Positions 25 to 18,354 of a stretch of 64,000 nt of DNA are shown piece by piece. Source of the DNA: Roseithermus sacchariphilus (GTDB lineage: Bacteria; Bacteroidota; Rhodothermia; Rhodothermales; MEBIC09517); assembly GCA_003285105.1 (NCBI GenBank), contig CP030158.1, positions 1,774,501-1,838,500 of the forward strand. The letters are read 5' to 3'. The notes beneath the pieces are model-generated. The model was not told where the DNA came from and ran no database searches. It worked only from the letters and a program-made list of their open reading frames with translations. Position 1 is the stretch's first letter. Every line of letters starts with the position of its first letter. Position numbers and translations under genes: made by a program.

Positions 25-145
25 GCGGCAGGGTTCGGCGCAGGCAGGCCCCGGACCCGATAGGCCTCACCTCGATGTACCGAACATGAAGGGTTGTTTT
101 ACGTATCAATCGGGTTTCGAGAACCGACCCTGATCGAGGCTTCCG

Positions 146-352: not shown

Positions 353-358
353 GGAGTC

Positions 359-670
359 GTGCCCCGTGTGCGGATTACCGAGCAGGCGCAGAGCGAACTC
401 GACGCGATCCTCGAGTACTACGAACGCGTTGGGGCGGGTGACTTTGCGGAGGTGTTCGAGGAGCGGGTGATCGCGAAGATCCGGAAACTCGAGCGATTTC
501 CCCGTATGGGTCGGGTGGTGCCGGAAATCAGAGATGACGCCATCCATGAGGTGCGCTATCGCAACCACCGCATCGTCTATCTGGTGGACCGGGAGGAGGA
601 AGAGATTGTGGTGCTAACGATCTTTCATGCTTCACGTCCCCTGGGAGACTGGGGCGGCTCCGAGGAGTAA
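359..670 (+). CDS. ParE/RelE-superfamily toxin
   Basis: A 103-residue protein starting at GTG, six bases after the antitoxin stop, so the two are almost certainly co-transcribed. Landmarks of the family are visible: an N-terminal '[13 protein letters not shown]' helix, the '[13 protein letters not shown]' turn, and the C-terminal beta strands '[14 protein letters not shown]' and '[12 protein letters not shown]'. Members either cleave ribosome-bound mRNA (RelE) or poison gyrase (ParE); the sequence does not let me choose. The stop codon is followed after one base by a fragment of ettA, so the cargo ends exactly at a repeat junction. Confidence 0.8.
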
Positions 671-671
671 A

Positions 672-826
672 GCGACCCCGCATATCCTGGCCTTCGAGGG
701 CGACAGCCGGGTCTACGCGTTCGAGGGCAACTACGCCCGGTATGAGGAGGACCGTCGCCGGCGCCTCGGCCACGACGCCGACCGCCCCCACCACATCAGG
801 CGTACCGCAGGCTCCAGCGGGGGTGA
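672..826 (+). pseudogene. ettA: ettA 3'-end fragment, copy 2
   Basis: About 50 codons of the C-terminal tail of EttA ([35 protein letters not shown]). Compared with copy 3 it has two extra bases near 799-802, which shifts the final codons out of frame; the TGA at 824-826 matches the other copies. There is no ATPase domain and no start, so this is a duplicated gene end and not a gene. It abuts the ParE stop codon at one side and the integrase remnant spacer at the other. Confidence 0.8.
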
Positions 827-923
827 AGGACGTTTGCAGGTTGAACGTTGAACGTTGGCGTCCTCCGGCGTCGCCGCTCACTGGCCCGGACGTGTGACCG
901 CCCCGACGTCTCCCGCGCACGGC
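827..923. repeat. Spacer between ettA end and intI end, copy A
   Basis: This 97-base spacer is clearly homologous to 6890-6993. Shared stretches include GGACGTTTGC directly after the ettA stop, GTTGAACGTT, and the GCCGCTCA-TGGCCCGGA block. It separates the convergent ends of ettA and the integrase. No protein is encoded. Confidence 0.7.
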
Positions 924-986
924 TCACCGGTCGAGCGGGCTGCGGACCGAGGTGCTCCGGTGTCGTGCCGGATCCGGCAGACGGAA
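924..986 (-). pseudogene. intI: Integron integrase remnant, copy A
   Basis: Read on the minus strand, 924-953 gives TSVRSPLDR-stop, the characteristic end of integron integrases. Immediately upstream, 966-986 gives the SVCRIRH codons that in copy B (6994-7304) belong to the N-terminal domain. Everything between is deleted, so only about 60 bases of a roughly 1-kb gene remain. It cannot make a protein. Its orientation, pointing away from the attI-like region, is the normal one for an integron platform. Confidence 0.7.
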
Positions 987-1148
987 ATGGGAATGGGGAA
1001 GATATGTAGCCTGTAGCGGAATATTGTCAGGCAACATTGAGATGTAAGTGCTTGATTGTACTGTGTTTTTCCAGTAGGTTGGACCGGTGATACATAGCCA
1101 CGGGGCGCGTTGTAACACGGCCCATGGCGGGTTAATAATAGGTTATGC
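987..1148 (+). other. attI-like recombination region, copy A
   Basis: This stretch is alignable with 7305-7472. Shared words include AAGATATGT, ATATTGTCA, TAAGTGCTTGATTG, GGTGATACAT, GCGCGTTGTAACA, GGCCCATGG and GGTTAATAATAGGTTAT. Each copy lies between an integrase remnant and the first inserted gene, and each ends in a GTTATGC/GTTATAC heptamer (here 1142-1148) after which the two copies become unrelated. That is the pattern of an attI site with the crossover in the heptamer. Assignment is by position and comparison of the two copies; no integrase binding has been shown. Confidence 0.6.
1052..1080 (+). promoter_or_regulatory. Cassette promoter-like element (Pc), copy A
   Basis: TTGATT at 1052-1057, 17 bases, then TAGGTT at 1075-1080, directed toward the inserted genes. 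The equivalent element in copy B is TTGATT-17-TATGTT. Conservation of hexamer position and spacing between two otherwise diverged copies supports a functional promoter, although copy A has the weaker -10. Confidence 0.4.
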
Positions 1149-1173
1149 GCCTGAAATTAAGAACGGAAGCTTT

Positions 1174-1217
1174 GTATGCTGTGATGCCGTACCCAGTATG
1201 CTGTGATGCCGTACCCA
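1174..1217 (+). repeat. Perfect 22-bp tandem duplication
   Basis: The 22-base unit at 1174-1195 is repeated exactly at 1196-1217, just after the cassette boundary and before the start of the secreted protein. It contains an ATG in each copy (ATGCCGTACCC), so it could produce alternative upstream starts. Probably a slippage duplication. Confidence 0.85.
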
Positions 1218-1238
1218 TCATTCGAATCGATCACTGCC

Positions 1239-2222
1239 ATGACGGACCGCTCTGCCCACATTTCGCATCTTACCCTGCTGTTCGTTGGCCTATTCCTGTT
1301 TGCATCAGCACAGGCACAGGATTGCCCATTCACCGAAAGCGATGCTATCGCCGACACGCTCAATCCGAAGGGCTATTATCCGCTGGAAATCAATATTGTT
1401 CATGAGTATGTGAACAGGAGTGGACCCTTTATCGACTATCTACTTAGACAAGAAGTTGTAGCCGACACGCTTATTGATGAAGATCTGTTCTATAAGCTCA
1501 AAGTGATTTCATTCGACGCTGAAAATACCACGATTATCACAGAGACAGACACGTCCTATTACTATCGAGCCGTCATTAATGGGGTCCTGTCTAGCTGGAC
1601 CCCCGAGGCAGGAAAAACTGAAAGCGAAATTCAATTCTTTCGAGACTTCAACACCTGTTATACGCACGCCAACAGGCCGGATGGGATTATCGTGCAAGGA
1701 GCCTACGACACCACGTTCACGTTTCCGTCGGGCGAATCCTCTACTCTGGCGGCCGTGAAGGAATTCGTCTTCATTCTACCTCAGGCTAGAGAAACACAGG
1801 AATATGGCTATGGAATAGGACTCCTACACAGCGGGGGAGAACCTAGCGTGAGTACAACGCTGACCTATGCCCGGATCGGTGGGCAAGAGTACGGCACTCC
1901 ACTCGATTCGCTCTTCGACATTCGGGTAAGCCTCGAATCGCCATCGCTTCCCAAAGAGACATTTAGCCTGTCGGCATACCCGAATCCGTCGTACGCGCTG
2001 ACCCATTTTGCTCTGGTGCTAGCTCAGTCTGGCCGTGCCTCCATGCGAGTTTACAACGTGCTGGGTCAGCTTGTCGCCACGCCCCTACAGGATGTTTACC
2101 TACCGATAGGCAATCACACGATTGAATGGAACGCTGAGGCTGTAACTACCGGCGTGTATTTCGCCGAGCTTTTCGTCGAGGGTCACCCTGTAGCAAAAAG
2201 CAGCGTCGTTGTCACCCGGTAG
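1239..2222 (+). CDS. Secreted protein with C-terminal sorting domain
   Basis: A 327-residue protein. I chose the ATG at 1239 because it gives a clean signal peptide (TLLFVGLFLFASAQAQ); an ATG at 1203 is also in frame. The central region has no family I recognise. The last about 80 residues are a typical FCB-group sorting domain of the type IX secretion kind: 'AYPNPSYALTHF', 'MRVYNVLGQLVAT', 'GNHTIEWNAEAVTTGVYFAELF' and a short basic end. The protein is thus expected to cross the outer membrane. It is the first gene after the copy A crossover, in the same orientation as other cassette genes. Confidence 0.75.
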   Translation: MTDRSAHISHLTLLFVGLFLFASAQAQDCPFTESDAIADTLNPKGYYPLEINIVHEYVNRSGPFIDYLLRQEVVADTLIDEDLFYKLKVISFDAENTTIITETDTSYYYRAVINGVLSSWTPEAGKTESEIQFFRDFNTCYTHANRPDGIIVQGAYDTTFTFPSGESSTLAAVKEFVFILPQARETQEYGYGIGLLHSGGEPSVSTTLTYARIGGQEYGTPLDSLFDIRVSLESPSLPKETFSLSAYPNPSYALTHFALVLAQSGRASMRVYNVLGQLVATPLQDVYLPIGNHTIEWNAEAVTTGVYFAELFVEGHPVAKSSVVVTR

Positions 2223-2317
2223 ATCCGAGGACGTGCTTTCACATCTGGCATAATCCGTGGATGCTCCATTTCAAGAACGGCCTTTTTCTAACTCATTACC
2301 CAACCCCAACAGATATA

Positions 2318-4666
2318 ATGACTTATACCACACTGAAACAGCGGTTTCCTGCGTCGTTACGCGGTGTTTTCTTGCTCATGCTGATAGGAATTGCCTTTCC
2401 CTTGAGCGTCTTGGGCCAGGAGACGTCCTGTGCCCATGGAAATATCCAGTGGACGCAGAGCCAGATGCAAGCCATGCTGAGTTCGCAGGCTGAGGTGCCG
2501 ACCTCTGGTCAGTTCAGAGCACTCATCGTTTTTGTCAGGTTCAAGGACGACACGTTCAACGACACGTGTAACGACAAGTGGCTCGCCTGGCACACGAGTG
2601 ACATGCTGCCCGATATGGCGCATGACTTCCTCGCTCCAGGTGGAGCAGGCGGTCAGGCACCCAGCCCGCCTTTTCCAGAGGACTCAATCACCGAATACTT
2701 CTATCAGCAATCGGATCGAAGCTTCATCTTCTACGGAGAGCCGTATGATGAAGTCGTTGAAACGCAGTTCAACGAGAGCCACTACCAGATCACAGGGACG
2801 GGCTCTACGTCTCAAAATGGTATGGCGGAGCTCACAGAGGAAGTGCTTGATTACATCGATGCGCAAGGTTTTGACTTCAGCGAGTACGATAATGACGGGC
2901 CCGATGGGGTGCCCGACTCCATTGATGATGATGGCTATATCGATCACATTTTTATAATCCCGCGAAGATTTCAGCAGCAAGTATCATGGGCGGGGTTTTC
3001 AATTCTCGGTAATCCTAATCAACCTATACTTTCCTACGATGGCAAAGATGTGGATTGGAATCTGTCAGGGTCCTACAACCGGTACGGGAATGCTGGAAAC
3101 ATCATACCACTGCTAACACTTGGACGCCTCATGGCTCACGAGTTCGGCCACGACATCTGGGGCACATCCAACATCGGAGGCGTGCATTTACAAGCCATCA
3201 CCAGCAATGACGTTCCCTCGAACGGCACCAAACGAATCGCTTACGCACACATGCCTGGTAGAGGTGGTGCTCTTGACATGGCGGGTAATGAAACGATCTC
3301 GGCTTTCGAGCGCGACGTCATCGGCTGGATCAACTGCATCCCCCTGCAAAGCGACGCCAGCGGCGTTAGGCTCGATCACCTGTACTCGTCAGGGGACTGT
3401 CGCGTCATTGAGCTTGACAACAGCTCTTCCGGCAAGACCATCTACCTGTCGAACCTCCAACACGTCGACTACTTTGATGAACTCCACATCTACGATCCCT
3501 CCTGCTTCTATGCCGAGGATGGCCTCAAAACGACGGGACTGCTGGTGGGCATAAGTCAGGGTTCAGGCTCCAGCGCTGAGTATGATGAGCTTCCTGCCGA
3601 CAATACGCTCGATATATCCAACGCAGCAGGTACCTACGCGGGCGATCTCTATTCTCCTTCCACGTCAGTACAAATAACTCCGTGGACCCGGCCCAACATT
3701 AACGGCTGCACCGGCTATACCTCTGATCCTGATTGTGATGCTTCGAACTTCACGCCAAGCTGGCAGGCGGTTGATAATATCCGCTACGTCAGCGGCTCAA
3801 GCGGACCCGTGGAATTCGATTACATCGCTGACTTCCGTGCGGCCCCGATCATCCGTGAAGACTCCTGGATCGGAGCCGAGACCTCGGGTGAAACGATCAC
3901 CGGGGATCTCATCGTCGAGGCCGGCGCTACGCTCACTATTGAGCCAGGCACGACCTTGAAGTTTGCATCCGGCAAGGGGATCATCGTCTACGGCACGCTC
4001 GACGCCGAAGACGTGACGCTGACAGCCAGCGGCACCTCCTGGGACGGCATCACGCTCTCTGGCTCTAGTGCCTCGGCCAGTATCCATAACAGCACCATCT
4101 CGAAGGCGACGACCGGTCTCTACGTTCAAAGCGCCAGCGGTATCCCCACTGTCACAGGTTCCACCATCACCAACAGTGGTAGCTATGCTATCCACGTCAA
4201 TTCCGGTTCCGTCGACGTCTATGACTCACAGCTTACCAACTCCGGCTCGCACGGCGTCTACGTCCAGGGCGGCGACATTACGCTGACTAACTCGACCGTT
4301 TCCGGCAACGGCGGCAGCGGCGTCCGGCTCGCCTATGGCGTTAGCGGGCTGCGCCTGGGCTGCTGCGGCGATAATGGATATAATGTCTTGACAGGCAACG
4401 GCTCGCACGGCGTCTACGCCAACGCATCGTCGTTGACTCTCGGCATTGCGCCCTCGGTTGTCTTGCCTGATGGCTATGCGGGCTACAATTCGATCTACGC
4501 CAACACTGGGAAGGACATGTATTTGACCAACGGGTCGGATGTGCGAGCCGAGCAGCATTGGTGGGGGGAGTCCCCGCCGAGCACGTCCGACTTTCACATC
4601 TCCGGCACCTCCACGCTTGACTATACGCCATATCTAGTGCCGTGTCAAGGATCATCTGCCGGGTAG
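2318..4666 (+). pseudogene. Secreted metalloprotease/beta-helix protein, 5' part, interrupted by IS630
   Basis: Reads from a signal peptide (FLLMLIGIAFPLSVLGQ; start at 2318, with an alternative at 2261) through a metalloprotease-like domain with HEFGH at about residues 274-278 and the preceding M6-peptidase-like text (FYGEPYDEV, DDDGYIDHIFIIP). From about residue 524 it becomes a parallel beta-helix (GDLIVEAGATLTIEPGTTL, then repeated NSTISKA / GSTITNSG / NSTVSGNGGSG turns). True coding ends at 4636, where an IS630 element is inserted; the residues to the stop at 4666 come from the IS end. The remainder resumes in the same frame at 5852. Peptidase function is inferred from the zinc motif and context; no substrate is known. 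Confidence 0.75.
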
Positions 4667-5849
4667 GATGGTAGCTTCAACAATCGCTCACTCCTGAAGC
4701 TACTTCCTGCCATGGCCAAAAAATACTGCGTCACGCTCAATGACAACGAACGTCAGCACCTCAATGGCCTCATTGAGCGGCGTTCAAAAAGCGCCTCGCC
4801 CGTCAAACGAGCCTTCATGCTGCTCAAAGCAGATCAGAGCCAGGGCGCACCGGCCTGGACCGATGAACGCATCGCCGAAAGCTACAACGTCAGTGTCCGA
4901 ACCGTCGAGCGCTTACGCCGGCGCTTCATCGAAGAAGGCTTCGAGGTGGCTCTCTACGGCAAAAAACGCGAACCGGTTAAAGAGAAGATCTTCGACGGGC
5001 AGGTCGAGGCCCATCTGGTGGCCCTGCGCTGTTCAGAGCCGCCGGAAGGCTTTGCCCGGTGGTCGCTTCGACTTCTGGCTGACCGTATGATCGAACTCGG
5101 TTACGTCGAATCGATCTCGCATGAGAGCGTGCGGCAGTTGCTTAAAAAAACGAACTCAAGCCCTGGCGCGTTAAGTCGTGGGTAATTCCTCAAGCCGATG
5201 CCGCCTTCGTCTGCCAGATGGAGCAAGTGCTCGATGTCTACGCCCGGCCCTACGACCCGCTCCGACCGGTTGTGTGCCTCGATGAAGCCCGCAAGCAACT
5301 CATCAGCGAGGTGCGGCAGCCCTTCACGAGGGCCGACGGGGTGCGGCACGTGGATTACGAGTACAAACGCGAAGGGACCCGCACGCTCTATATGCTCTGC
5401 GAGCCGCTGGGCGGCTTCCGGAAGGTGCTCGTCACGGAGCGTCAGGACCGTTTGACGTGGGCTCGTGTGGTGGCCCACCTCGTTGAAGACCTCTATCCAG
5501 ACGCCGAGACGATCACGCTGGTTCAGGACAACCTCTCCGCGCACACCGTCTCGGCGCTCTACGAGGTCTTCGACGCCGAGCGCGCCCGGCGCATCGTGCG
5601 CAAGTTGGAGGTGGTCCCGACGCCGGTGCATGGTTCGTGGTTGAACATGGCCGAGATCGAGCTTTCGGTGCTGGTTCGTCAGGGTCTCTGTCGCCGCATC
5701 GGCAATGCATCGCAGTTAGAGGGCGAGATCGCCGCCTGGTACGAGGCGCGCAACGCAAAGCAGCGGGGTGTAGACTGGCAGTTCACCACGGCGGATGCGC
5801 GGGTGAAGTTGAAGCGGCTATACCCGTCGATTATAACTTGACGCAGCAC
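4637..5849 (+). mobile_element. IS630-family insertion sequence, complete
   Basis: A 1,213-bp element bounded by inverted repeats GTGCCGTGTCAAG (4637-4649) and CTTGACGCAGCAC (5837-5849), whose complement is GTGCTGCGTCAAG. Both ends are flanked by TA (4635-4636 and 5850-5851), the target duplication of the IS630/Tc1-mariner group. It carries one transposase in two overlapping frames. The element sits inside the metalloprotease gene and both ends look undamaged, suggesting a fairly recent insertion. Confidence 0.9.
4712..5841 (+). CDS. IS630 transposase, probable -1 frameshift fusion
   Basis: Frame 1 (4712-5185) encodes the N-terminal helix-turn-helix part (TDERIAESYNVSVRTVERLRR) and a winged domain; it would stop at 5183-5185. 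A run of seven A at 5144-5150 followed by C gives the classical A_AAA_AAC slippery sequence. A -1 slip there gives KKNELKPWRVKSW and joins the second frame, which runs to 5841. That frame carries the DDE catalytic set: D in VVCLDEA, D in LVQDNLSAH, E in NMAEIEL. Programmed -1 shifting is common in IS630 elements, so the enzyme is probably intact; a simple inactivating indel is the alternative. Confidence 0.85.
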
Positions 5850-5851
5850 TA

Positions 5852-6676
5852 GGCTCAAACCCGAATATGGCGATGTCTGTTGCAGCCAACGTGCGAGCCG
5901 GTACCAGCGAAGCACTGGGCCTCGCCGAAGTAGAAGCCGGGCAATCGGTCTTAGAGCAACCCGCATCTGCTCCGATGGCAGAGACAGCCGCAGGCGAGGC
6001 AGGCATCTCTACAAAATCGCAATCTTCGAAGGGTCAATTTGTGAGAGAGATCATGAAGCGACGGGCCGAGCAGGGTCGTGCCGCTTCCGCGGAGGCTTTG
6101 CTACGTGTCGCCAGTGAGCGAGGCAACCCGCTGGCCTACCTCGCTCAGGTGTTCGCTGTGGGAGATCTGCTCTACCTAGGGCGAACGCAGGAAGCTATCT
6201 TGCTGGGGGAGGCCGTGTTACAAAGCGGGCAACTCGATGCAGGGGCCACGAGCGTAGTAGCGCAGGCTCTGCTGTGGGCCTATGAAGACGTGCTGAAAGA
6301 CGAAGCCAACGCTGCCCGGATAAGGCAAGTCCTCGCTCTTGCCGGAGAAGCCTTTGAGACCAATGCGGCCATTGCCAATCTTGGTGACGATCAGTTAGAA
6401 GCAGACCAGGAAGCTGTAGGACTGCAGTCAGGGGCTTATCCGAACCCATTCAATCCAGAGGTGTCCATCCACTACGCTCTGCCACAGGAAGGACGGGTAC
6501 GGCTCAGGGTCTTCGACGTGTTAGGGCGTCAGGTGGCGACGCTGGTGGATGAAGTGCAGCAGGCAGGAAGGCACCGGGTTCGTTTTGTGGCCTCGGATCT
6601 GCCGAGCGGGGTCTACCTGTACCGCATCGAAGCAGGGGGGCAGATGCAGACAGGGAGGTTGGTTTTGCAGAAGTAG
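5852..6676 (+). pseudogene. Metalloprotease/beta-helix protein, 3' part with sorting domain
   Basis: Joining base 4636 to 5852 keeps the reading frame: ...DYTPYL then GSNPNMAMS. The segment has an alanine-rich helical part with tetratricopeptide-like character (AEALLRVASERGNPLAYLAQ, then GEAVLQSGQLDAGATSVVAQ) and ends in a sorting domain ('AYPNPFNPEVSIHYALPQEG', 'RVFDVLGRQVATLVDEV', 'PSGVYLYRIEAGG'). Restored, the gene would encode about 1,050-1,070 residues. An ATG at 5867 could start a leaderless fragment, which would lack a signal peptide and not be exported. The gene ends just before an attC-like site. Confidence 0.75.
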
Positions 6677-6682
6677 AACGGC

Positions 6683-6817
6683 GCATAACCCGGAAATTCA
6701 GCGGACAAAGGGCGCATAGGCGTTTTCCGGTGCGGTTTTGCTCCGTGCCGTCGCAAGTGGCATTCTTGAAGGTAGTTGCCTCGCAGCCCTTTGCCGCTGA
6801 TCGCCAAGTCGTTATGC
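6683..6817 (+). other. attC-like integron recombination site, 135 bp
   Basis: Outer heptamers are GCATAAC (6683-6689) and GTTATGC (6811-6817), inverse complements. Inside, TCAGCGGACAAAGGGC (6698-6713) pairs with GCCCTTTGCCGCTGA (6786-6800) perfectly except for one unpaired A at 6705, the kind of extrahelical base that integrases use to choose the strand. The centre is a long variable loop. With the crossover at 1142-1148 it bounds a cassette of about 5.7 kb including the IS. This is large for a cassette, so multi-step assembly is possible. Confidence 0.75.
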
Positions 6818-6831
6818 CGCTCCCTGCGCCA

Positions 6832-6889
6832 CGGCCACGACGCCGACCGCCCCCACCGCATCAAGTACCGCAAGCTCCAGCGCGGGTGA
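6832..6889 (+). pseudogene. ettA: ettA 3'-end fragment, copy 3
   Basis: The frame ending at TGA 6887-6889 reads [19 protein letters not shown], the EttA C-terminus, and its last seven codons are identical to copy 1 at the window start. It begins about 15 bases after the attC heptamer, so the join between cassette end and chromosomal gene end is abrupt. Only about 19 codons remain. Confidence 0.8.
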
Positions 6890-6993
6890 AGGACGTTTGC
6901 CGGTTAAACGTTGAACGTTAAACGTTGGAGGCCTCCGGCGCCGCCGCTCAGTGGCCCGGAGGTGTGACCGCCTCCACGTCTTCCAAGCACGCC
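6890..6993. repeat. Spacer between ettA end and intI end, copy B
   Basis: Homologous to 827-923 with scattered substitutions and small indels. It contains a short array of AACGTT words (TTAAACGTTGAACGTTAAACG) between the convergent ettA and intI ends. No gene is seen. Confidence 0.7.
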
Positions 6994-7304
6994 TCACCGG
7001 TCGAGCGGGCTGCGGACCGAGGTGCCCTGGTTCAACACGTGCGTGTAGTGCCTAACCGGGCGCACCGGGCCTGGTTCTGTGTGGAGGCCGCCACCTGCCG
7101 CACTTCGGCCAGAAAACTCAGGTATTCGCGCACGTGTGAAGCCCCGAGCTGTGCCGGATGACGCTTGCCGTAAAAGTAGATAAACCGTTTGATCCACTGG
7201 ACATAGGCTCGTTCCGTGCTTATACTGTAGTGCCGGATCCGGCAGACGGACCGAACCTGATCGAGCAACCGGGGCGAAGACGGGTTCATGGTGCTTGATG
7301 GCAA
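6994..7304 (-). pseudogene. intI: Integron integrase, internally deleted, copy B
   Basis: On the minus strand the first about 79 codons (7304 down to about 7068; ATG at 7289 also possible) give the N-terminal domain of an integron integrase: RLLDQVRSVCRIRHYSIS, TERAYVQWIKRFIYFYGKRH, AASTQNQA. A different frame then gives the last codons, HYTHVLNQGTSVRSPLDR-stop (about 7050-6994), including the tyrosine that is the nucleophile in this family. Roughly 230 residues between, carrying the other catalytic residues and the IntI-specific region, are gone. The protein must be inactive. Orientation and position identify this as an integron platform facing away from its cassettes. Confidence 0.9.
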
Positions 7305-7472
7305 TATGTGTAAGATATGTTGGTATTATATGGCCCGTGGCGATATATTGTCAAGCAGGACCGAGAGGTAAGTGCTTGATTGCACGGCGTTTTGCCGGTA
7401 TGTTGAATTGGTGATACATGGCCATCGGGCGCGTTGTAACATGGCCCATGGCCGGTTAATAATAGGTTATAC
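7305..7472 (+). other. attI-like recombination region, copy B
   Basis: Lies between the integrase start and the TIR cassette and ends in GTTATAC (7466-7472). It is alignable with 987-1148 up to that heptamer and unrelated after it, which marks the crossover. The stretch is more A+T-rich than the surrounding ettA-derived DNA. Inference by comparison of the two copies. Confidence 0.65.
7376..7404 (+). promoter_or_regulatory. Cassette promoter-like element (Pc), copy B
   Basis: TTGATT (7376-7381), 17-base spacer, TATGTT (7399-7404), pointing at the TIR cassette. The same hexamer-spacer arrangement is present in copy A. Promoters located in attI or intI and firing into the array are the rule in integrons. 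Confidence 0.45.
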
Positions 7473-7497
7473 CCAAATCCAAACTAAGGAGTTTTAA

Positions 7498-8259
7498 ATG
7501 ATTCATAATGGAACCTTAGAAGATCTTAAAACAATTATAAAAGGGTGCGGGTTTACCGTAGGCGAAGTAAAAGACCAGCAGCATGGTCATCAAATACGTA
7601 CAAATGAAGGCGCAATTGTAAATTGGTATACATCTACTGGTAAGATAGTAATTCAAGGAAAAAAACCGGCTAAGGACAAGCTCGAAGAGGCATGGGGTTC
7701 GTATACAGGTGTAGCTCCAAAACAAGCTGGGGTTACCGCAGATGCGCCAGCTCCACATGCGCCAGCAAATCCTGCAGTGGCAAACAAAAAAGTCTTTGTG
7801 GTTCATGGTCACGATAATGTATCTCGTGAGCAATTAGAATTGGTCTTGCACAAACTTGGTCTCGATCCATTTGTCCTTGCCAATACAGGTGGTGGCGGCC
7901 TTACAATAATTGAAGCATTGGAAGCCGAAATAGGAACCAACAATAATCAAGCTAGGTTTGGTATCGTACTTATGACACCGGACGATATGGGTTATTCAAA
8001 ATCCGATGGTCCAGAGAACGCACAGCCTCGGGCTCGCCAAAATGTAGTCTTGGAAATGGGAATGCTTATTTCGGCTGTAGGCCGCGGCAATGTTGCAATA
8101 CTTAAAAAAGGTCACCTTGAAGTACCATCAGATGCTCAGGGTATTCTTTACATACCCTTCAACGATCATGTGAAAGAAGTAGTGCCAAAACTAGCTGATA
8201 GGCTTAGGGCCGCAGGTTTCGTACTTAACCCGGAAAATATTACTAAAGCATCAAGTTGA
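7498..8259 (+). CDS. TIR-like nucleotide-binding effector (PF10137-type), integron cassette gene
   Basis: A 253-residue protein preceded by a strong AAGGAG ribosome site (7486-7491). Residues about 1-55 form a small alpha/beta domain of unknown function (GCGFTVGEVKD, VNWYTSTGKIVIQGK). A proline/alanine linker follows, then from about residue 97 a TIR-like domain: VFVVHGHDN, GGGGLTIIEALE, FGIVLMTPDDMG and RARQNVVLEMGMLI, where the glutamate is the likely catalytic residue of the NADase fold. This family (PF10137; Cap12 and Pycsar TIR effectors) depletes NAD+ in anti-phage systems. No cyclase gene is adjacent, so the trigger is unknown and the N-terminal domain is the candidate sensor. The gene is A+T-rich compared with the chromosome and is enclosed by attI and attC. 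Confidence 0.85.
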   Translation: MIHNGTLEDLKTIIKGCGFTVGEVKDQQHGHQIRTNEGAIVNWYTSTGKIVIQGKKPAKDKLEEAWGSYTGVAPKQAGVTADAPAPHAPANPAVANKKVFVVHGHDNVSREQLELVLHKLGLDPFVLANTGGGGLTIIEALEAEIGTNNNQARFGIVLMTPDDMGYSKSDGPENAQPRARQNVVLEMGMLISAVGRGNVAILKKGHLEVPSDAQGILYIPFNDHVKEVVPKLADRLRAAGFVLNPENITKASS

Positions 8260-8263
8260 ATGG

Positions 8264-8333
8264 GTATAACAAACGGCTGTTGTCGGACGTGCCTACGCTG
8301 TGCTTCGGCACGCCGCAAAGCCGGGCGTTATGC
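8264..8333 (+). other. attC site of the TIR cassette, 70 bp
   Basis: Outer boxes GTATAAC (8264-8270) and GTTATGC (8327-8333). The left end TAACAAACGGCT and right end AGCCGGGCGTTA resemble the ends of Vibrio cholerae VCR-type attC sites. CGGCT pairs with AGCCG, and TTGTCGGACGTGCC pairs with GGCACGCCGCAAA with one unpaired A. The small spacing and the perfect placement three bases after the TIR stop make this a convincing attC. Confidence 0.85.
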
Positions 8334-8440
8334 GCAACAAATATCAATAGTGGTATTGAGTCTAAAATAATGAGTTTTATTCCTAGAAAATCTAGAAATT
8401 TTTTCGAGACAAAATACGCACCAAATTCTGGAGATAGGCC

Positions 8441-8701
8441 GTGTTTCGATCAAAGAAAAAATGCCTAACATGTCAAGGAATGGGATATGTAACCGAAGTA
8501 AGTTGGAAATGCCCAAACCCAAGTTGCTCTTATGGTTCACATGGATTAATTGATTCATGGGCTGAAGGTCCTCCCAATGGCTCTGAGTGGTTTTGCCCAA
8601 ACTGTGGTACTACTGTTAGCTACTGGCTACACGGTGGTTATGTAAAATCTCATGGCACAAATCCTTGTTCAACTTGTGGGGGCAAGGGGTATGTCCGCTA
8701 G
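8441..8701 (+). CDS. Small zinc-ribbon protein (CxxCxGxG type)
   Basis: An 86-residue protein starting at GTG after GGAG (8431-8434). It contains paired CxxCxGxG motifs at each end (CLTCQGMGYV near residue 8 and CSTCGGKGYV near the C-terminus), as in the DnaJ zinc-binding region, plus CPNPSC and CPNCG in the middle. A compact protein with two zinc sites is likely. No J domain is present, so it is not a DnaJ. It lies in the cassette after the TIR gene, 40 bases upstream of the membrane protein, with which it may be co-expressed. Function unknown. Confidence 0.65.
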   Translation: MFRSKKKCLTCQGMGYVTEVSWKCPNPSCSYGSHGLIDSWAEGPPNGSEWFCPNCGTTVSYWLHGGYVKSHGTNPCSTCGGKGYVR

Positions 8702-8741
8702 ATTGTGTTCAAGGTGTTTAATCTCTCAGACTTGATTTCCT

Positions 8742-9635
8742 ATGCTAGAGACGATTATTTCACTATGCGGTCTGGCCTACAGTTTTGTTAGTGGTATCAA
8801 GGCAGGACGAGAGGCCAAACACATGCTTGAGGTCCAGCAACGGCAACTCCAGTCAATTGAGCGATTGAGCGAGCATCTGTTTTATGCGTCTGGTATAAAT
8901 GAAGTCAGAAATACCGCTCTGCCCACTCAAAGATTAGTGACGGATCTTGAAAAGGTTAGAATTGCACTTGATCCTGTTCAACGTGCATTGGGAGACACTA
9001 TTTTTTCGTCGGGTCTAATCTACACGCCATCTCGAATGCAAGAGGCACTTCTTGAAGATCCATGGAGATGCTTAACTCATATCTCCCCGCTACACAGGAT
9101 TAATACCCCGGCAAATGATGAGATGATTCCTGTATTTTTTAGCGTTGATGGGGGTCGATACATTGGCTGGCAAACCAGAGGTGCACTCATCACATTGTTT
9201 AATTGTGAATTTAATCCTATATCTACAGGATTAAAGAGGATGAGTAGCGTGAGTCAAAGGCTCAGGTTAGAAAACTATGAGGCGGAAAGAGGAAGGATAT
9301 ATGTTCATTTTCCGGAGGTTATTCGGGCGGTGTTCAGTCACTACAGCCTGTTAGGAACATATGTTGCGATTCCTTCAGATCCCAACCTCTGCAGTCTGAG
9401 TTGTTATTTGATTGGAGATGTCAAGAGAGGAGTACAAAACTATCACACTTCACTAACTACTGATGCTATAGTTCGTCGACATGGGCGAAGAGAAAAATTG
9501 CAACCAGCAGGCGCAGGCTTATTTTTTATTAATTACACTGATGGGGTTGGAGATGCTAGAATCGTTGCTCATTTAGGGTCTGACGGTAGCGGAGCACAAG
9601 GCGATCATTTTTATGCTTGGGTTGCTTTTCCCTAA
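8742..9635 (+). CDS. Hypothetical membrane-anchored protein, cassette gene
   Basis: A 297-residue protein with a short hydrophobic N-terminal segment (TIISLCGLAYSFVSGI), a helical stretch rich in Q/E (MLEVQQRQLQSIERLSEHL), and then a soluble domain of mixed strands with a closing 'GDHFYAWVAFP'. I do not recognise the family. The layout, a membrane hook followed by a possible sensor or enzymatic domain, is seen in many uncharacterised defence proteins, but nothing here proves that role. Base composition is A+T-rich like the TIR gene. It ends about 80 bases before a degenerate attC-like site. Confidence 0.6.
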   Translation: MLETIISLCGLAYSFVSGIKAGREAKHMLEVQQRQLQSIERLSEHLFYASGINEVRNTALPTQRLVTDLEKVRIALDPVQRALGDTIFSSGLIYTPSRMQEALLEDPWRCLTHISPLHRINTPANDEMIPVFFSVDGGRYIGWQTRGALITLFNCEFNPISTGLKRMSSVSQRLRLENYEAERGRIYVHFPEVIRAVFSHYSLLGTYVAIPSDPNLCSLSCYLIGDVKRGVQNYHTSLTTDAIVRRHGRREKLQPAGAGLFFINYTDGVGDARIVAHLGSDGSGAQGDHFYAWVAFP

Positions 9636-9713
9636 AAAAAGATACCCTCAGCATGGGAAACTCTCTTTCTGGCACCTGCACTATTTCAGACTTGGGATAT
9701 TCGCAAATTTCGA

Positions 9714-9854
9714 GGCGCGCATAACCCCTTTATGGCCTCACTTTGTCAAGGGCAATAGCGTCCGTGACTGAAAAAAATACCTTTCGGTACCTCTTCGGCT
9801 TCCCAGTTTACATCGCCTTGTTGCCGCGCGTGTCCTGTCGGTTTGGTTGCGCGC
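9714..9854 (+). other. Degenerate attC-like site
   Basis: GGCGCGCATAAC at 9714-9725 is mirrored by GTTGCGCGCC ending at 9854, and GGCAA (9751-9755) can pair with TTGCC (9820-9824) in the interior. The right heptamer is not a clean GTTRRRY. It is positioned where the end of the third cassette is expected, so it may be a decayed or divergent attC. Low certainty. Confidence 0.4.
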
Positions 9855-9894
9855 CTGTTTGGAGGCGTCGTACCTAACACCTTTAGAGAGGCTG

Positions 9895-9940
9895 ACCTTA
9901 CCCCCACCGGATCACGTACCGCAGGCTCCAGCGGGGGTGA
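9895..9940 (+). pseudogene. ettA: ettA 3'-end fragment, copy 4
   Basis: The frame ending at TGA 9938-9940 reads PHRITYRRLQRG, the EttA tail. Like copy 1 it is followed by GCGG after the stop, while copies 2 and 3 are followed by AGGACG. This suggests copies 1 and 4 are the outer boundaries of the whole inserted block and copies 2 and 3 are internal. Confidence 0.7.
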
Positions 9941-9946
9941 GCGGAT

Positions 9947-10690
9947 TCAGAGCGCCCCGGCGGCGTCGCGGGCGCCCAGGCGGTGCACCACGAGGGTGGA
10001 GAGGCCGATGAGCAGCATCAGGAAGACGGCGTAGGCGGCGGCCGCGCCGAAGTCGTAGAGGCGGAGCTGCGCCAGGATCTCGACGCTGATGGGCCGGTTC
10101 TCGAAGATGTAGAGCATGATGGAGGAGACGAACTCGCCCAGGGCCGCCACGAACGTCAGCAGCGTGCCGGCCAGGATGCCCGGGCCGATGACGGGCAGCA
10201 CCACGCGCCGGAACGTGGTGAGGAAGCCCGCACCCAGGTCGGCCGAGGCCTCGGAGAGGCGGTCGTCGTAGCCCTCGAGGGCGGCCACGGTGGCGTGCAC
10301 CACGAAGGGGATGTGGCGGATGAAGTAGGCCAGCGGCAGGATCCAGAAGGTGCCCACCAGGATGCGCCCGAAGCTCAGGGGCGAGGGGGTGTTGAACGTC
10401 ACGATCAGGTTGACGGCGATGACCGTGCCGGGGATGGCGAAGGGCAGGGCCGTCAGCAGGCGGACGAGCGTGCGGCCGGGCAGCCGCCCCCGGGTGATGA
10501 ACAGCGCCGCCGCCACGCCGAAGACCACGTTGGCCGCCGTGGCCAGCGCGGCCATGCGCAGGCTGTTGCGGATGGGCTGGAACACGTCCGGGTCGGCCAG
10601 CAGGTCCACGTAGTTGGCCAGCGTGTAGCGGGTCGGGAGGATCTGGTAGGTCCAGCTCCCTTCCTGCGCCTTTTCCACCGAGGTAGGAGC
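9947..10690 (-). pseudogene. ABC transporter permease, 5'-truncated
   Basis: On the minus strand from about 10657 the sequence encodes a C-terminal permease domain of the binding-protein-dependent (iron/thiamine/putrescine-like) type: RNSLRMAALATAANVVFGV, PGTVIAVNLIV, then the EAA-like loop 'SEASADLGAGFLTTFRRVVLP' and two closing membrane segments. The usual N-terminal half is missing; upstream it runs into an IS66 remnant, although the frame stays open to 10777. No partner ATPase or binding protein is present. Best read as a broken gene. Confidence 0.65.
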
Positions 10691-10812
10691 TCCCTGACCG
10701 CTTTTGCCCGATGGGTCGGGATTCGTCTCAGCACGTCCGTTAGCCACGCGTGCGGGTTGGCCTCGTGCGGCTTGCACGTCGCCAGCAGCGAGTACATGAC
10801 CGCCGCCTTTCC
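10675..10812 (-). pseudogene. IS66-family transposase, C-terminal remnant
   Basis: The minus strand reads GKAAVMYSLLATCKPHEANP, then HAWLTDVLRRIPTHRAKAVRELLP, the well-known end of IS66 transposases (YSL-ATC...WL-DVL-RI...ELLP). Only about 46 codons remain and no other IS66 part is nearby. It directly abuts the truncated permease, so the insertion or a following deletion probably removed that gene's 5' half. Confidence 0.8.
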
Positions 10813-10895
10813 AGGACTACGCGTCGGCGCATGCGACGGCGTGCACAGGTGCAGGTTCTGCTCGGCTGCCAGCCGCTGGCTCAACTCACGGTCGG

Positions 10896-11009
10896 CATTG
10901 CGAATCCATCTCGCTCGGCTGGCACTTCCACTACGCCGCTGACGAAGGGCTCGTGCTGGGTCGACGCGTGGCGAGCTACCTTACCAACACCGATCTCCTG
11001 CCCGAATGA
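10896..11009 (+). pseudogene. Possible vanadium haloperoxidase/PAP2-type C-terminal remnant
   Basis: A 38-codon frame with no start reads SISLGWHFHYAADEGLVLG, then RRVASYLTNTDLLPE-stop. The phrase 'G-H--ADEGL-LGR-VA-YL' resembles the last helix of vanadium-dependent haloperoxidase-like proteins. Too short for certainty; it could be the tail of another gene carried off by rearrangement. Confidence 0.3.
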
Positions 11010-11187
11010 GGCAGGGCGCCCGTCGTGTTCTGTCGGGCCTCAACGCAGTAAAAGGGGCGGTGCAAGCAAAGCGGCTCTCGCGTTCGCTTGTATCCTCGAG
11101 ACCGTCTGAGTAGCTTGGGCGGTTGGCTGCCGCCGGGTGCCTCCGTCCGGCAGGCCGGTTTGCCTGTTTCGTCTGCCCCCCGCTCCC

Positions 11188-14100
11188 ATGCCTGTCCCTG
11201 CAAGGTATGCGCTCGGCGCCGCGCTGGTCCTCGTCGCCGGGATGCTGTCCGCCTGCCGTCGCACCCCCGACCCGATCCCCGTCGCCCCGGGCGACACCAT
11301 CGCGCTGATCGGCAACAACCTCTGCTCGCGGGCGCTCCACTTCGGACACCTCGAGACGGAGATCTACCTGCGGTATACAGACCACCGGCTCACGCTGCGC
11401 AATCTGTGTGACGGCGGCGATACGCCCGGCTTCCGGCCTCACTCGGGCCGCCCCTCGCCCTGGGCATTTCCCGGTGCCGAGCAATTCTATGCCGGTTCGG
11501 AGCTGGCGCGCGACTCCGGCAGCGAAGGCCACTTCGAGACGCCGGACGAGTGGCTCACGCGCCTCGGGGCCGACGTCATCGTGGCCTTCTTCGGCTACAA
11601 CGAGTCGTTCCGCGGGCCGGAAGGGCTCGACCTCTTCAAGGCCGAGCTGGATGCCTTCGTCCGCCACACGCTGAACCAGCGCTACAACGGCATGGCGCCG
11701 CCGGTGCTGGCCCTTGTCTCGCCCATCGCCTTCGAGGACCGGACCGACGCCTACGACCTGCCGGACGGCACGCGGGAGAATGCCAACCTGGCGCTCTACA
11801 CCGGGGCCATGCAGGAGGTCGCCGCCCGGCATGGCGTCCGCTTCGTCGATGTGTTCACTCCGTCGAAACGCTGGTTCGAGACGAGCGAGGAGCCGCTGAC
11901 GATCGACGGCTTCCAGCTCAACGACGCCGGGTATGCTCGCCTGGCTGCCTACCTCGCCGAGGCGCTCTTCGAGGCGCCGAAGCCGGAGGCGGCCGCCCAC
12001 CGGCCGCTCGTGCGCAAGGCCGTGCTGGAGAAGAACTGGATGTGGCACAACGACTACAAGATCCCCAACGGCGTGCACGTCTTCGGCCGCCGCTACGAGC
12101 CCTACGGGCCGGACAACTACCCGGCCGAGCTGGAGAAAATCCGGCAGATGACGGCCATCCGCGATACGGCCATCTGGCGGGCGCTGCACGGTGAGTGGAC
12201 GGACCTGGCCGCGGCCGATGCGCGCACGCGGCCCCTGCCGCCGGTGCAGACCAACTACGAGCCGAGCGAGAAGAACGGCGCTCTCCGCTACCTCTACGGC
12301 CAGGAAGCGCTGGACCACCTGATCCCCGCACCGGGCTATCGCATCGAGCTGTTCGCCTCCGAGCGGGAGTTCGACGACCTGGCGAACCCCGTGCAGCTCT
12401 CCTTCGATAACCAGGGCCGCCTGTGGGTGGCCGTGATGCCGAGCTACCCCCACTGGAAGCCCGGCGACCCGAAGCCCAACGACAAGCTCCTCATCCTCGA
12501 AGACACCGACGGCGACGGCCGCGCCGACCGGCAGACGACCTTTGCCGACAGCCTGCACCTGCCCGTCGGCTTCGAGTTGACGCCCGAGGGCGTCTACGTC
12601 TCGCAGGGCACCAACCTCGTGCTCCTGACCGACACCGACGGCGACGACCGCGCCGACCGCCGCGAGATCGTCCTCAGCGGCTTCGACGACCACGACACGC
12701 ACCACACCATCAGCGCCTTTACCACCGACCCCTCGGGCGCCATCTACATGGCCGAGGGCGTCTTCCTGCATACCAACGTCGAAACGCCGTACGGACCCGT
12801 GCGGGCCACCAACGGCGGCTTTTACCGCTACGACCCGAAGCGCCGGCACCTGGAGCGCACGGCCCAGCTTGCCATCCCCAACCCCTGGGGCATCGCCTTC
12901 GACGACTGGGGGCAGCCCTTCTTCGCGGAAACGTCGGGGCCGGACGTCCGCTGGATGATGCCCGGCACCGTCCGGCCGCGCTACGGCGTGGCCACCCACA
13001 AGTCGTTCAACCTGATCGAAGAAGCGCACCGGGTGCGCCCCACCTCGGGCCTGGAGTTCGTCTCCAGCCGCCACTTCCCCGACGAGGTCCAGGGCGATCT
13101 GCTCATCAACAACACCATCGGCTTCCTCGGCACCAAACAGCACACCATGCGCGAAGACGGCACGGGCTACGTGAGCACCCACCGCCTGGATCTGGTCCGC
13201 GGCACCGACCCGAACTTCCGCCCGGTGGACATGGAGTTCGCCCCGGACGGGTCGCTGTACCTGGTGGACTGGCACAACGTGCTGATCGGGCACATGCAGC
13301 ACAACGCCCGCGACCCGCTCCGGGACCACGAGCACGGCCGCATCTACCGCATCACCTACCCGTCGCGTCCGCTGGTCGAGCCGGCGCCGGTGGCCGGCGC
13401 GCCCGTCAAGGTCCTGCTGGAGAACCTCAAGCTGCCCGAGTACCGCACGCGCTACCGCACCCGCCGCGAGCTGCGCGGCCGCGACCCCGGCGAGGTCCTG
13501 CCCGCCCTCCGGGCGTGGGTGGCCGGCCTGGATGCGGACGACCCGCGCTACGAGCATCACCTGCTGGAGGCGCTGTGGGTGACGTGGGGGCTGAACCGGG
13601 TCGATGAGGCGCTGCTCCGGCGGTTGCTGCAGGCAGACGACTTCCGCGCGCGGGCCGCCGCCGTGCGGGTGCTGCGCTACACGGGCCACCAGGTGGCCGA
13701 TCAGGCCGATCTGCTGGAACAGGCCGCCCGGGACCCGCACGGGCGCGTCCGCCTCGAAGCCATCGTCGCGGCGTCCTGGCTGGAGCGGGAAGCCGGGCTG
13801 CGCGTGCTGGACGCCGCCGGGGAGCACCCGCTCGACGAGTGGATGATCCATGCCTACCGGACCGCCCGGGCTCACCTCAACGGCCGGGAGGTGACCGAGG
13901 AGGACGAGGAGACGACCCAGACGAGGCTGGAAGGGGAGGCGCTCGCCCGCTTCCTGCTGGGACGGGAGATCTACCGCCGCGAGGGCTACTGCGGCACCTG
14001 CCATCAGCTCGCCGGCGAGGGGCTGTCGGCCTCCGGCTTCCCTCCGCTGGCCGGCACGCGCTGGGTGCTGGGCGACGAGGAGCGCCTGATCAAGCTCACG

Positions 14101-14358
14101 CTGAAGGGCCTCTACGGCCCCATCGAGGTGCTGGGCCGCCGCTACGACGGGCAGGTGCCCATGACGGCCTTCGAGGGCCTGCTGAACGACGAGGAGGTGG
14201 CGGCGGTGCTGACGTACGTGCGCAACGCCTTCGGCAACGAAGCCTCCGTCATCTCGCCGGAGCAGGTGGCGGCGGTGCGCGCGGCGATCCGCGACAAGGA
14301 GGGCTTCTACACCCCGCAGGAACTGCTGCTCCAGCATCCGTTCGAAGACGATGAATGA
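11188..14358 (+). CDS. Large lipoprotein: SGNH-like domain, propeller dehydrogenase-like domain and cytochrome c
   Basis: A 1,056-residue protein. The ATG at 11188 gives a lipoprotein signal ending VAGMLSAC. Order: an SGNH/GDSL-like domain (GDTIALIGNN near residue 35; FFGYNESF; TIDGFQLNDAGY), a beta-propeller of the PVC-type membrane-bound dehydrogenase kind (APGYRIELFA, DNQGRLWVAVMPSYPHW, DTDGDGRAD, VDWHNVLIGHMQHN), helical HEAT-like repeats, and a C-terminal cytochrome c with CGTCH near residue 934. It is expected to be anchored outside the cytoplasmic membrane and to oxidise a sugar or alcohol with electron transfer to heme. The SGNH block V has Q where the catalytic His usually is, so that domain may bind rather than cleave. 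Such fusions are typical of Planctomycetes and relatives. Confidence 0.85.
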   Translation: MPVPARYALGAALVLVAGMLSACRRTPDPIPVAPGDTIALIGNNLCSRALHFGHLETEIYLRYTDHRLTLRNLCDGGDTPGFRPHSGRPSPWAFPGAEQFYAGSELARDSGSEGHFETPDEWLTRLGADVIVAFFGYNESFRGPEGLDLFKAELDAFVRHTLNQRYNGMAPPVLALVSPIAFEDRTDAYDLPDGTRENANLALYTGAMQEVAARHGVRFVDVFTPSKRWFETSEEPLTIDGFQLNDAGYARLAAYLAEALFEAPKPEAAAHRPLVRKAVLEKNWMWHNDYKIPNGVHVFGRRYEPYGPDNYPAELEKIRQMTAIRDTAIWRALHGEWTDLAAADARTRPLPPVQTNYEPSEKNGALRYLYGQEALDHLIPAPGYRIELFASEREFDDLANPVQLSFDNQGRLWVAVMPSYPHWKPGDPKPNDKLLILEDTDGDGRADRQTTFADSLHLPVGFELTPEGVYVSQGTNLVLLTDTDGDDRADRREIVLSGFDDHDTHHTISAFTTDPSGAIYMAEGVFLHTNVETPYGPVRATNGGFYRYDPKRRHLERTAQLAIPNPWGIAFDDWGQPFFAETSGPDVRWMMPGTVRPRYGVATHKSFNLIEEAHRVRPTSGLEFVSSRHFPDEVQGDLLINNTIGFLGTKQHTMREDGTGYVSTHRLDLVRGTDPNFRPVDMEFAPDGSLYLVDWHNVLIGHMQHNARDPLRDHEHGRIYRITYPSRPLVEPAPVAGAPVKVLLENLKLPEYRTRYRTRRELRGRDPGEVLPALRAWVAGLDADDPRYEHHLLEALWVTWGLNRVDEALLRRLLQADDFRARAAAVRVLRYTGHQVADQADLLEQAARDPHGRVRLEAIVAASWLEREAGLRVLDAAGEHPLDEWMIHAYRTARAHLNGREVTEEDEETTQTRLEGEALARFLLGREIYRREGYCGTCHQLAGEGLSASGFPPLAGTRWVLGDEERLIKLTLKGLYGPIEVLGRRYDGQVPMTAFEGLLNDEEVAAVLTYVRNAFGNEASVISPEQVAAVRAAIRDKEGFYTPQELLLQHPFEDDE

Positions 14359-14468
14359 ACCGGGCCGTGGGGAAGGGGATCAGGACCGACACGGTGGATC
14401 GTTGCCGCCGGCACTCGGCCTCCTTCGGCTCCACGACGCCTCGTTCCACGCATAGCACGAGGGCGCTC

Positions 14469-14762
14469 ATGACGCTCGACACCTTCACCCGTACCCTCCA
14501 CGACGACGCGCCGCCGGCCGGGCTGCCGGCCCCGCTAGAGGCGCTCTGGTACGAGGCCCGGGGCGACTGGGACCGCGCCCATCGCCTCGTCCAGGACGAC
14601 CCTTCGGCCGAGGCGGCCCGCGTCCATGCCTACCTGCATCGCAAGGAAGGCGATGCGGGGAATGCCGCCTACTGGTACCGCCGCGCCGGCCAGCCTCGCT
14701 GCACCGGCTCGCTCGACGACGAGTGGCGCGCCCTCGTCGAGGCGCTGCTCGCACAGCCCTGA
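14469..14762 (+). CDS. Small conserved protein
   Basis: 97 residues from ATG 14469. The core 'ALWYEARGDWDRAHRLVQDD', 'AARVHAYLHRKEGDAGNAAYWYRRAG' recurs in many bacterial genomes as a stand-alone helical protein of unknown function with tetratricopeptide-like character. Upstream ATGs exist (14355), but they would give a low-complexity extension. It ends 7 bases before the DUF885 gene, so the two may be co-transcribed. Soluble and cytoplasmic by sequence. Confidence 0.7.
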   Translation: MTLDTFTRTLHDDAPPAGLPAPLEALWYEARGDWDRAHRLVQDDPSAEAARVHAYLHRKEGDAGNAAYWYRRAGQPRCTGSLDDEWRALVEALLAQP

Positions 14763-14769
14763 TCCAGCC

Positions 14770-16557
14770 ATGTCCCGTCTGCTCGTTTCCCGCCCGCCCC
14801 GGCTCCGTCTGCTCGCGTTCCTGATGGCGGGGGCCTGCCTGGCCGTGTGGCCCGGCTGCGGCACCGCCGACCCCGATGCCGCGCTGCGCGACCTCTACGA
14901 GGCCGCCTGGCGGTTCCGGCTCGAGGAAGACCCGCTGCTGGCCACCTCCGTCGGCGTCCACACGCACAACGACCGCCTGCCGTCGATGGCGCCGGAGGAC
15001 CTGGCCCGCCGCGAAGCCTACTGGCAGGACGTGCTCGCCCGCCTCGATGCGCTCGACGTCGACGCCCTCAGCCGCACCGGACGCATCCACTACGCCATCT
15101 TCCGCGATCAGGTGGAGGACGCGCTGGCGCAGTACCGCTTCGGCGCGTACCGCATCCCGCTCAATGCCGACTCGGGCTTCCACACGGCCTTTGCCCGCCT
15201 GCCGGCCCAGGTGCCGCTGGCCACCGTGGCCGACTACGACGCCTACCTGGCCCGGCTGCGGGCCTTCCCCGCCTACGTCGATCAGCACATCGCCCTCATG
15301 CGCGAGGGCCTCGCCACCGGGATGACGCTGCCGCGCGTCGTGCTCGACGGCATCGACGTGACGTGGACGACCCATCTGGTGGACGACGTGGAGGAGAGCG
15401 TCTTCTGGGCGCCGTTCGCCGCCTTTCCGGCGGCCGTGCCGCCCTCCGAGCAGGTGCGCCTGCGCGCCGAGGGCCGGGCGGCCATCGAGGAGGCGGTGCA
15501 GGAGGGCTACCGCCGCTTCGGGCGGTTCATGACGGACGAGTACATCCCCGGCGCCCGCCCCACCATCGCCGCCGCCGATCTGCCCGACGGCCGGGCGTAC
15601 TACGAACAGCGCGTCCGCCACTTCACCACGCTGGACCTGACGCCCGAGGAGATCCACCGGATCGGGCTCGCGGAGGTCGCCCGCATCCGCGCCGAGATGG
15701 AAGCCGTCATCGAGCAGGTCGGCTTCGAGGGGGATTTCGCGGCCTTCCTGCGGTTTCTGCGGACCGATCCGCGCTTTTACGCAGAGACGCCGGAGGCGCT
15801 GTTGAAGGAAGCCGCCTACATCGCCAAGCGGATGGACGGCCGGCTGCCGGCGCTGTTCAGGACGCTGCCGCGCCTGCCCTACGGCATCGCCCCGGTGCCC
15901 GACCACCTCGCGCCGAAGTACACCGGTGGGCGGTACGTCGGCCCCGCCTGGGGCAGCACCGAGCCGGGCTACTACTGGGTCAACACCTACGACCTGCCGA
16001 GCCGCCCGCTCTACACGCTGGAGGCGCTGACGCTGCACGAGGCCGTGCCGGGGCATCACCTGCAGATCGCGCTCAGCCGGGAGCTGGAGGACCTGCCCGA
16101 TTTCCGGCGTTTCTCGTACATCTCGGCCTTCGGCGAGGGGTGGGGGCTCTACGCCGAGTGGCTCGGCCTGGAGGCCGGCTTCTACACCGACCCGTACAGC
16201 AACTTCGGCCGGCTCACCTACGAGATGTGGCGGGCCTGCCGCCTCGTGGTCGACACCGGCATGCACGCCCTGGGCTGGACGCGCGCGCAGGCGATGGACT
16301 TCCTCGCCTCGAACACGGCGCTCTCGCTGCACGAGGTGCGCACCGAGACGGATCGCTACATCTCGTGGCCGGGCCAGGCGCTGGCCTACAAGATGGGCGA
16401 GATCACGATCCGCCGGCTGCGCCGGGAGGCCGAAGACGCCCTCGGCGAGCGGTTCGACGTCCGCGCCTTCCACGACGTCGTCCTGCGCAACGGCTCCGTG
16501 CCGCTGCCGGTGCTGGAGGCCGAGGTGCGGGCCTACATCGCGGCGGCGGGGGGGTGA
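14770..16557 (+). CDS. DUF885-family metallopeptidase, lipoprotein
   Basis: 595 residues. The N-terminus (LLAFLMAGACLAVWPGCG) looks like a lipoprotein signal. The DUF885 signature is present: HEAVPGHH at about residue 423, which provides zinc ligands and the general base, and downstream FGEGWGLYAEWLG with the third ligand glutamate. The C-terminal 'YISWPGQALAYKMGE' is also typical. These enzymes are related to M32 carboxypeptidases and are thought to trim peptides in the envelope. Substrate unknown. Confidence 0.88.
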   Translation: MSRLLVSRPPRLRLLAFLMAGACLAVWPGCGTADPDAALRDLYEAAWRFRLEEDPLLATSVGVHTHNDRLPSMAPEDLARREAYWQDVLARLDALDVDALSRTGRIHYAIFRDQVEDALAQYRFGAYRIPLNADSGFHTAFARLPAQVPLATVADYDAYLARLRAFPAYVDQHIALMREGLATGMTLPRVVLDGIDVTWTTHLVDDVEESVFWAPFAAFPAAVPPSEQVRLRAEGRAAIEEAVQEGYRRFGRFMTDEYIPGARPTIAAADLPDGRAYYEQRVRHFTTLDLTPEEIHRIGLAEVARIRAEMEAVIEQVGFEGDFAAFLRFLRTDPRFYAETPEALLKEAAYIAKRMDGRLPALFRTLPRLPYGIAPVPDHLAPKYTGGRYVGPAWGSTEPGYYWVNTYDLPSRPLYTLEALTLHEAVPGHHLQIALSRELEDLPDFRRFSYISAFGEGWGLYAEWLGLEAGFYTDPYSNFGRLTYEMWRACRLVVDTGMHALGWTRAQAMDFLASNTALSLHEVRTETDRYISWPGQALAYKMGEITIRRLRREAEDALGERFDVRAFHDVVLRNGSVPLPVLEAEVRAYIAAAGG

Positions 16558-16734
16558 GCCCGGCCGGTCCGATGCGTCCGGCGGGCCGGTTCCACCGTCT
16601 CTTCGCAGAGGCCCTGCAACCTCGCCCGGGGCAGGGTAGTAGGGCCTTCCCGCGTCGCTGGACGACGGCTGCGGTATCCCTCCGGTGCCGCGCTGCCTCG
16701 CCCCTCCCCGGCCCGTGCATCTCCGCTCCTCCCC

Positions 16735-18312: not shown

Positions 18313-18354
18313 GACGCTTTGCTTTCCGCTCAAACGCTTTAACGTTGCGACGGC

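Follow-up and report, generated by a model that had tools for sequence, protein, structure and literature searches.

A probable mobile TIR-gene cassette at the attI site of a decayed integron beside ettA in Roseithermus sacchariphilus

In the chromosome of Roseithermus sacchariphilus, the sequence at 8264-8333 of the window (the whole stretch of 64,000 nucleotides analysed, to which coordinates refer unless another locus is named) is very probably the attC site of a mobile one-gene cassette, which carries a TIR gene and appears to have been inserted at the adjoining attI site of a decayed integron on the side of ettA. The cassette is an ordinary representative of an already known kind; the novelty lies in the scattered attI copies without an integrase that were found in this host and in G010, a genome of the same order.

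Structure of the attC site

The site lies on the forward strand and begins four bases past the stop codon (8257-8259) of the TIR gene. Its layout is GTATAAC-AAAC-GGCTGTTG...CAAAGCC-GGGC-GTTATGC, in which R'' (8264-8270), L'' (GGCTGTTG), L' (CAAAGCC) and R' (GTTATGC, 8327-8333) follow one another, with the crossover between 8327 and 8328. R'' and R' are inverted, end in AAC and begin with GTT, respectively, and pair at 7 of 7 positions with one G-T; in the circular form of the cassette they make a perfect 7-bp pair, as cassette theory requires. L'' and L' (GGCT-G-TTG and CAAAGCC) pair with one extrahelical base in L''. This base, a G on the top strand, agrees with the unpaired base claimed in the earlier note, and the interior stem contains further single unpaired bases. 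When folded as DNA, the bottom strand forms a hairpin of -21 kcal/mol (z = -3.9).

An initial, relaxed scan for R and L boxes called many false sites within genes, and a stricter scan with controls was therefore adopted. The site at 8264-8333 received the top score in all integron loci examined, and a score of at least 14 was reached by 1 of 1,749 random 195-nt slices used as its control. A covariance search, suggested in the earlier note, was performed with a model (CM) of nine attC sites from three other genomes (G006, G023 and G033); it matched exactly 8264-8333 (22.3 bits, E = 0.006 in 208 kb) and also detected three attC sites of a plasmid integron outside the training set. The site was absent from the output when the CM was run with filters off, perhaps because of a hit-length limit, and for this reason we regard the CM by itself as moderate evidence. 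No match was obtained in Rfam over 1-20000 (E ≤ 1) or, for the exact pattern of this attC, in IMG/VR. The boxes, the hairpin, the scan, the CM and homologous sites elsewhere agree with the earlier placement of an attC directly behind the TIR gene. Judged by its sequence, 8264-8333 is a genuine attC, and the cassette borders that it shares with gammaproteobacterium HTCC5015 suggest that it has been recombined by an integron integrase.

The site differs from the other attC sites of the host genome, and its close relatives were found in Marinobacter, on a plasmid of Thiolapillus and in a class 1 integron of Escherichia coli. The attC in the plasmid integron of Marinobacter sp. SBY-1 is 89% identical and sits between bla and qnrVC1, with intI annotated beside that array, and that in the class 1 integron of E. 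coli plasmid pEc98_2 is 82% identical and precedes qacEdelta1; the cassettes of both integrons, however, carry other (resistance) genes. The VCR elements of Vibrio have the ends TATAAC ... GTTATGC, are about 120 bp long and occur as near-uniform copies within one array. The term "VCR-like" used in the earlier note is apt for the R boxes, which are similar, but not for the remainder, because the site has 70 bp, a different interior, a single copy and the relatives named above, and differs from a VCR in both length and repetition.

The TIR cassette and its twin in HTCC5015

The complete single-gene cassette extends from 7467 to 8327 on the forward strand (861 bp). It opens with TTATAC, the complement of its own R'' (GTATAAC), and the R'' thus predicted occurs once downstream. 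In a genome scan of 84,980 species, the closest relative of the TIR protein (89% identity) was found in HTCC5015, a marine bacterium of a phylum other than that of the host. The DNA match to HTCC5015 spans 7466-8330 with 80.6% identity and includes both the gene and the attC, and beyond it the identity drops to 29% and 36% on either side, close to chance. The ends of the match are the two integrase crossovers, so that homology between the genomes stops at both GTT crossovers, and these limits are exactly those of the compact single-gene cassette outlined in the earlier note. Since the cassette ends in HTCC5015 at precisely the two bases at which it ends here, we consider it a real mobile cassette, and one that documents the exchange of a defence gene between phyla within base-exact borders. 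The HTCC5015 copy sits behind another attC, and the window copy behind attI. The GC content of the cassette is 44%, versus 69% in the chromosomal part of the window.

The integron platform

To the left of the cassette, a remnant of an integron integrase gene was identified on the reverse strand (7032-7304; NF011946, 4e-21; TIGR02249, 5e-20; PF13495, 2e-24), which retains about 70 N-terminal residues, the remainder being deleted. A candidate integrase promoter on the same strand (7325-7354, TTGACA-18-TATAAT) matches the sigma-70-like consensus at 12 of 12 positions, a consensus match being its sole basis. The attI region (7288-7466, forward strand) has its crossover between 7466 and 7467 and, in an alignment of eight copies, a conserved core of about 56 bp at the crossover; it shares 89-94% identity with its counterpart in an intact integron. 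Because attI ends at 7466, the TIR gene takes first place among the cassettes. In G010, the orthologous locus has ettA and an integrase that is complete (456 bits); its intI-attI region corresponds to that of the window (94% identity over window 7067-7469), and the right flank is also shared (97%). A functional intI beside attI is therefore absent at the window locus, which has the N-terminal remnant only, and intact in G010. Over window 1-10500, G010 locus L076 shows 97-99% identity in several genes and in the ABC-permease flank; despite the label of G010 as another family, such identity reflects either recent exchange or a problem with that label. No tRNA was found in the window.

Three intI genes were found in the host, all apparently broken: that of locus A (G000 3843502-3844486) is frameshifted, another stops ~55 profile positions short of the end, and the third is the window remnant. 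Locus A (L022; G000 3832001-3850000) is a second integron, which adjoins the only full ettA of the host. Its frameshift may result from a sequencing error, and if so the system may have remained active. An attC in L022 is apparently split by a 1,044-bp stretch, likely an insertion sequence, and L023 has a stretch of 100% identity to it next to its intI.

Taken together, these features suggest the following order of events. The platform would be an old chromosomal integron beside ettA, whose attI was copied several times, mostly without the integrase, the copies coming to hold different cassettes. At the window locus, an integron integrase would have inserted the circular TIR cassette at attI by a crossover between 7466 and 7467, so that it became first in the array, where it would be expressed from the attI side, and the neighbouring integrase gene would afterwards have shrunk to about 70 N-terminal codons. 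The TIR cassette is probably frozen now, because the local intI is reduced and the other two are frameshifted or truncated.

Two other explanations of the palindrome were considered. A transcription terminator, or some other hairpin foreign to integrons, would account for a stable fold just past a stop codon. Yet 8264-8333 has no T tract, no terminator was called there, and the stretch, which might have turned up in many copies as a terminator, occurs once in the 4.8-Mb genome; moreover, its R and L boxes, its extrahelical base and the cassette limits in common with HTCC5015 have no place in a terminator, and its close relatives sit in integrons, all of which makes such an origin barely credible. 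It is also very improbable that the cassette is a relic of the CALIN type, integrated at an attG, a secondary site in the genome, where a true attI is lacking. CALINs are common (PMC9024848), and the window locus has no complete integrase, but the intI remnant lies in the right orientation, the attI region resembles that of the intact integron as described above, and the conserved attI block stops exactly at the crossover. A cassette inserted at a true attI accommodates these observations, and past integrase activity, asserted in the earlier note, is supported by the HTCC5015 cassette borders, the intI remnant, the attI and the shift of a T9SS-protein cassette (see below). That note had overlooked the intI remnant, the integrase promoter, the attI, a further attI copy at 1003-1142 and the additional cassettes.

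Repeated attI copies

The attI block is present in at least eight copies in the host and G010, mostly without an integrase: at window 7288-7466, at window 1003-1142, 12 kb upstream of the window, and in G010 at no fewer than five places, among them an integrase-less copy at 589673-589838. When eight copies were aligned on the crossover, their identity was 0.80-0.94 over the last ~56 bp; past the crossover it was 41% in the first 20 bp (a shared TTA and C) and then 23%, the chance level. What comes after the crossover differs from copy to copy; for five copies or more it is a cassette that possesses an attC. For four copies, the opening six bases of the cassette were used to predict R'', which was then found exactly once in the next 3.5 kb with an attC behind it, and for a fifth an attC was detected by the CM (L202 8932-8990). 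The copy at 1003-1142 (copy 1, forward strand) has its crossover between 1142 and 1143, where its similarity to copy 2 (82%) ends, and the integrase beside it is almost wholly deleted (961-1003). In L021, the stretch 7318-9129 holds another attI copy together with a DUF4062 cassette (attC 8323-8457) and a MazEF cassette, the latter seemingly with its own attC.

Whether the copies, as distinct from the attC, have any function of their own is a question on which we are evenly divided. Those near ettA carry an ettA 3' tail and differing intI deletions, like broken duplications, and could be mere debris of segmental duplication. On the other hand, the G010 copies away from ettA are well conserved only in the ~56 bp at the crossover, and the cassettes behind no fewer than five copies have an attC. 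A further, tentative and rather doubtful proposal is that there is one integrase for many docking sites: attI may have spread without the integrase, with its recombination core under selection, while a single IntI (intact in G010) would serve in trans and each copy would capture and express its own cassettes, including defence genes. Should the integrase-less copies prove live, integrons could have more docking sites than integrases, and a large number of orphan attI platforms may have been missed. The eight copies also allow an attI with a conserved core of ~56 bp to be read directly; for integrons other than class 1, attI sites have been poorly described, and the standard program does not detect them (PMC9024848). 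An incomplete search of the literature turned up no description of attI sites that are scattered without an integrase and hold cassettes of their own.

Other cassettes and ettA tails in the window

A probable second cassette (8328-9905, forward strand, with a putative right end) follows the TIR cassette and contains two ORFs (8441-8701, a zinc ribbon, and 8742-9635). It opens with TTATGC at the crossover; the complementary R'' (GCATAAC) is at 9719-9725, and the right half of its attC is degenerate. Behind attI copy 1, comparison with G010 places the start of another forward-strand cassette at 1143 (1143-2222), with a gene for a T9SS-sorted protein (1203-2222). This cassette lies behind attI in the window and behind attC in G010, with its junction at the same base (G/TTATGC, the slash marking the crossover), and to judge from that junction the differing position testifies directly to the movement of cassettes within the group. 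The second full attC of the window (6683-6817, forward strand, crossover between 6811 and 6812) follows a T9SS gene (5867-6676); it has R'' (GCATAAC), L boxes and R' (GTTATGC), and a homologous attC is present in G010. An IS630-type element with its transposase in two ORFs occupies 4634-5852 and is 97% identical to one at the orthologous G010 locus.

Directly past the crossover of this second attC lies a copy of the ettA 3' end (6818-6889, forward strand). Further ettA tails, which consist of the last 24-150 bases of ettA and bound each integron module, are found in the window at 1-24, 676-826 and about 9902-9940, and in L021 at 6256-6979, 9216-9330 and 19426-19524. Three start right at an attC crossover (window 6811, L021 about 9248 and 19445; GTTATGC/CGCTCC...), and whole integrons have possibly been moved or duplicated through recombination between attC and the ettA 3' end. 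An empty junction of ettA and the ABC-permease gene, which would show insertion at the ettA 3' end, was seen in none of the 12 loci examined. At 176-670, a small ORF precedes a gene for a ParE-like toxin, which is fused straight to the ettA fragment at 676.

The chromosomal integrons of Xanthomonas lie beside ilvD and have an inactivated intI (PMC12444791). The present integron is similar in its position at a fixed chromosomal gene, here ettA, and in an intI that is repeatedly broken by deletions or frameshifts while the arrays remain, but differs in having several attI copies, most without an integrase, each before different cassettes. A complete integron is on record in the Bacteroidetes/Chlorobi group for Salinibacter ruber M1 (IntegronFinder 2.0, PMC9024848), whereas the locus described here is in decay and holds several attI. 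In the delta-attI cassettes of class 1 and 2 integrons, attI occurs away from the integrase and is still recombined by IntI1 (PMC12901181). In those cassettes, however, pieces of attI replace the attC downstream of the gene, whereas here whole attI lie upstream of cassettes as docking sites.

The TIR gene and its predicted function

The TIR effector gene (7498-8259, forward strand) encodes a protein of 253 aa, whose domain is of the CAP12/Pycsar type by Pfam (PF10137, 1.1e-33), and it matches the PADLOC candidate defence family PDC-S35 over the full length of the profile (residues 2-253, 5e-112); homologues support this assignment. The gene shares its TIR domain with the CAP12/Pycsar-type effector systems, but has no adjoining cyclase: neither Pfam nor PADLOC identified a partner nucleotide cyclase in the next two genes (8441-8701 and 8742-9635). 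The domain and profile matches suggest that the protein is most likely a phage-triggered, NAD-consuming single-gene defence effector, PDC-S35 being only a candidate family.

The protein is ~67% identical to its homologues in G023, a relative from another family, and Paludisphaera. In G023, the gene comes after a small ORF, with a full intI ~600 bp away, and is followed (L068 13920-13960) by GGTATAATTATAGGTTATACC, apparently an attC cut down to two R boxes. An attC-like site lies at most 6 bases past the stop codon in about 9 of 46 TIR homologues. No attC was detected downstream of the Paludisphaera gene and some relatives are located in prophages; not all TIR homologues, therefore, are cassettes. 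Locus A has a ThsB-like TIR gene near its intI, and G010 has an AbiJ-like gene (a weak match) as second cassette, so that defence-like genes recur in these arrays.
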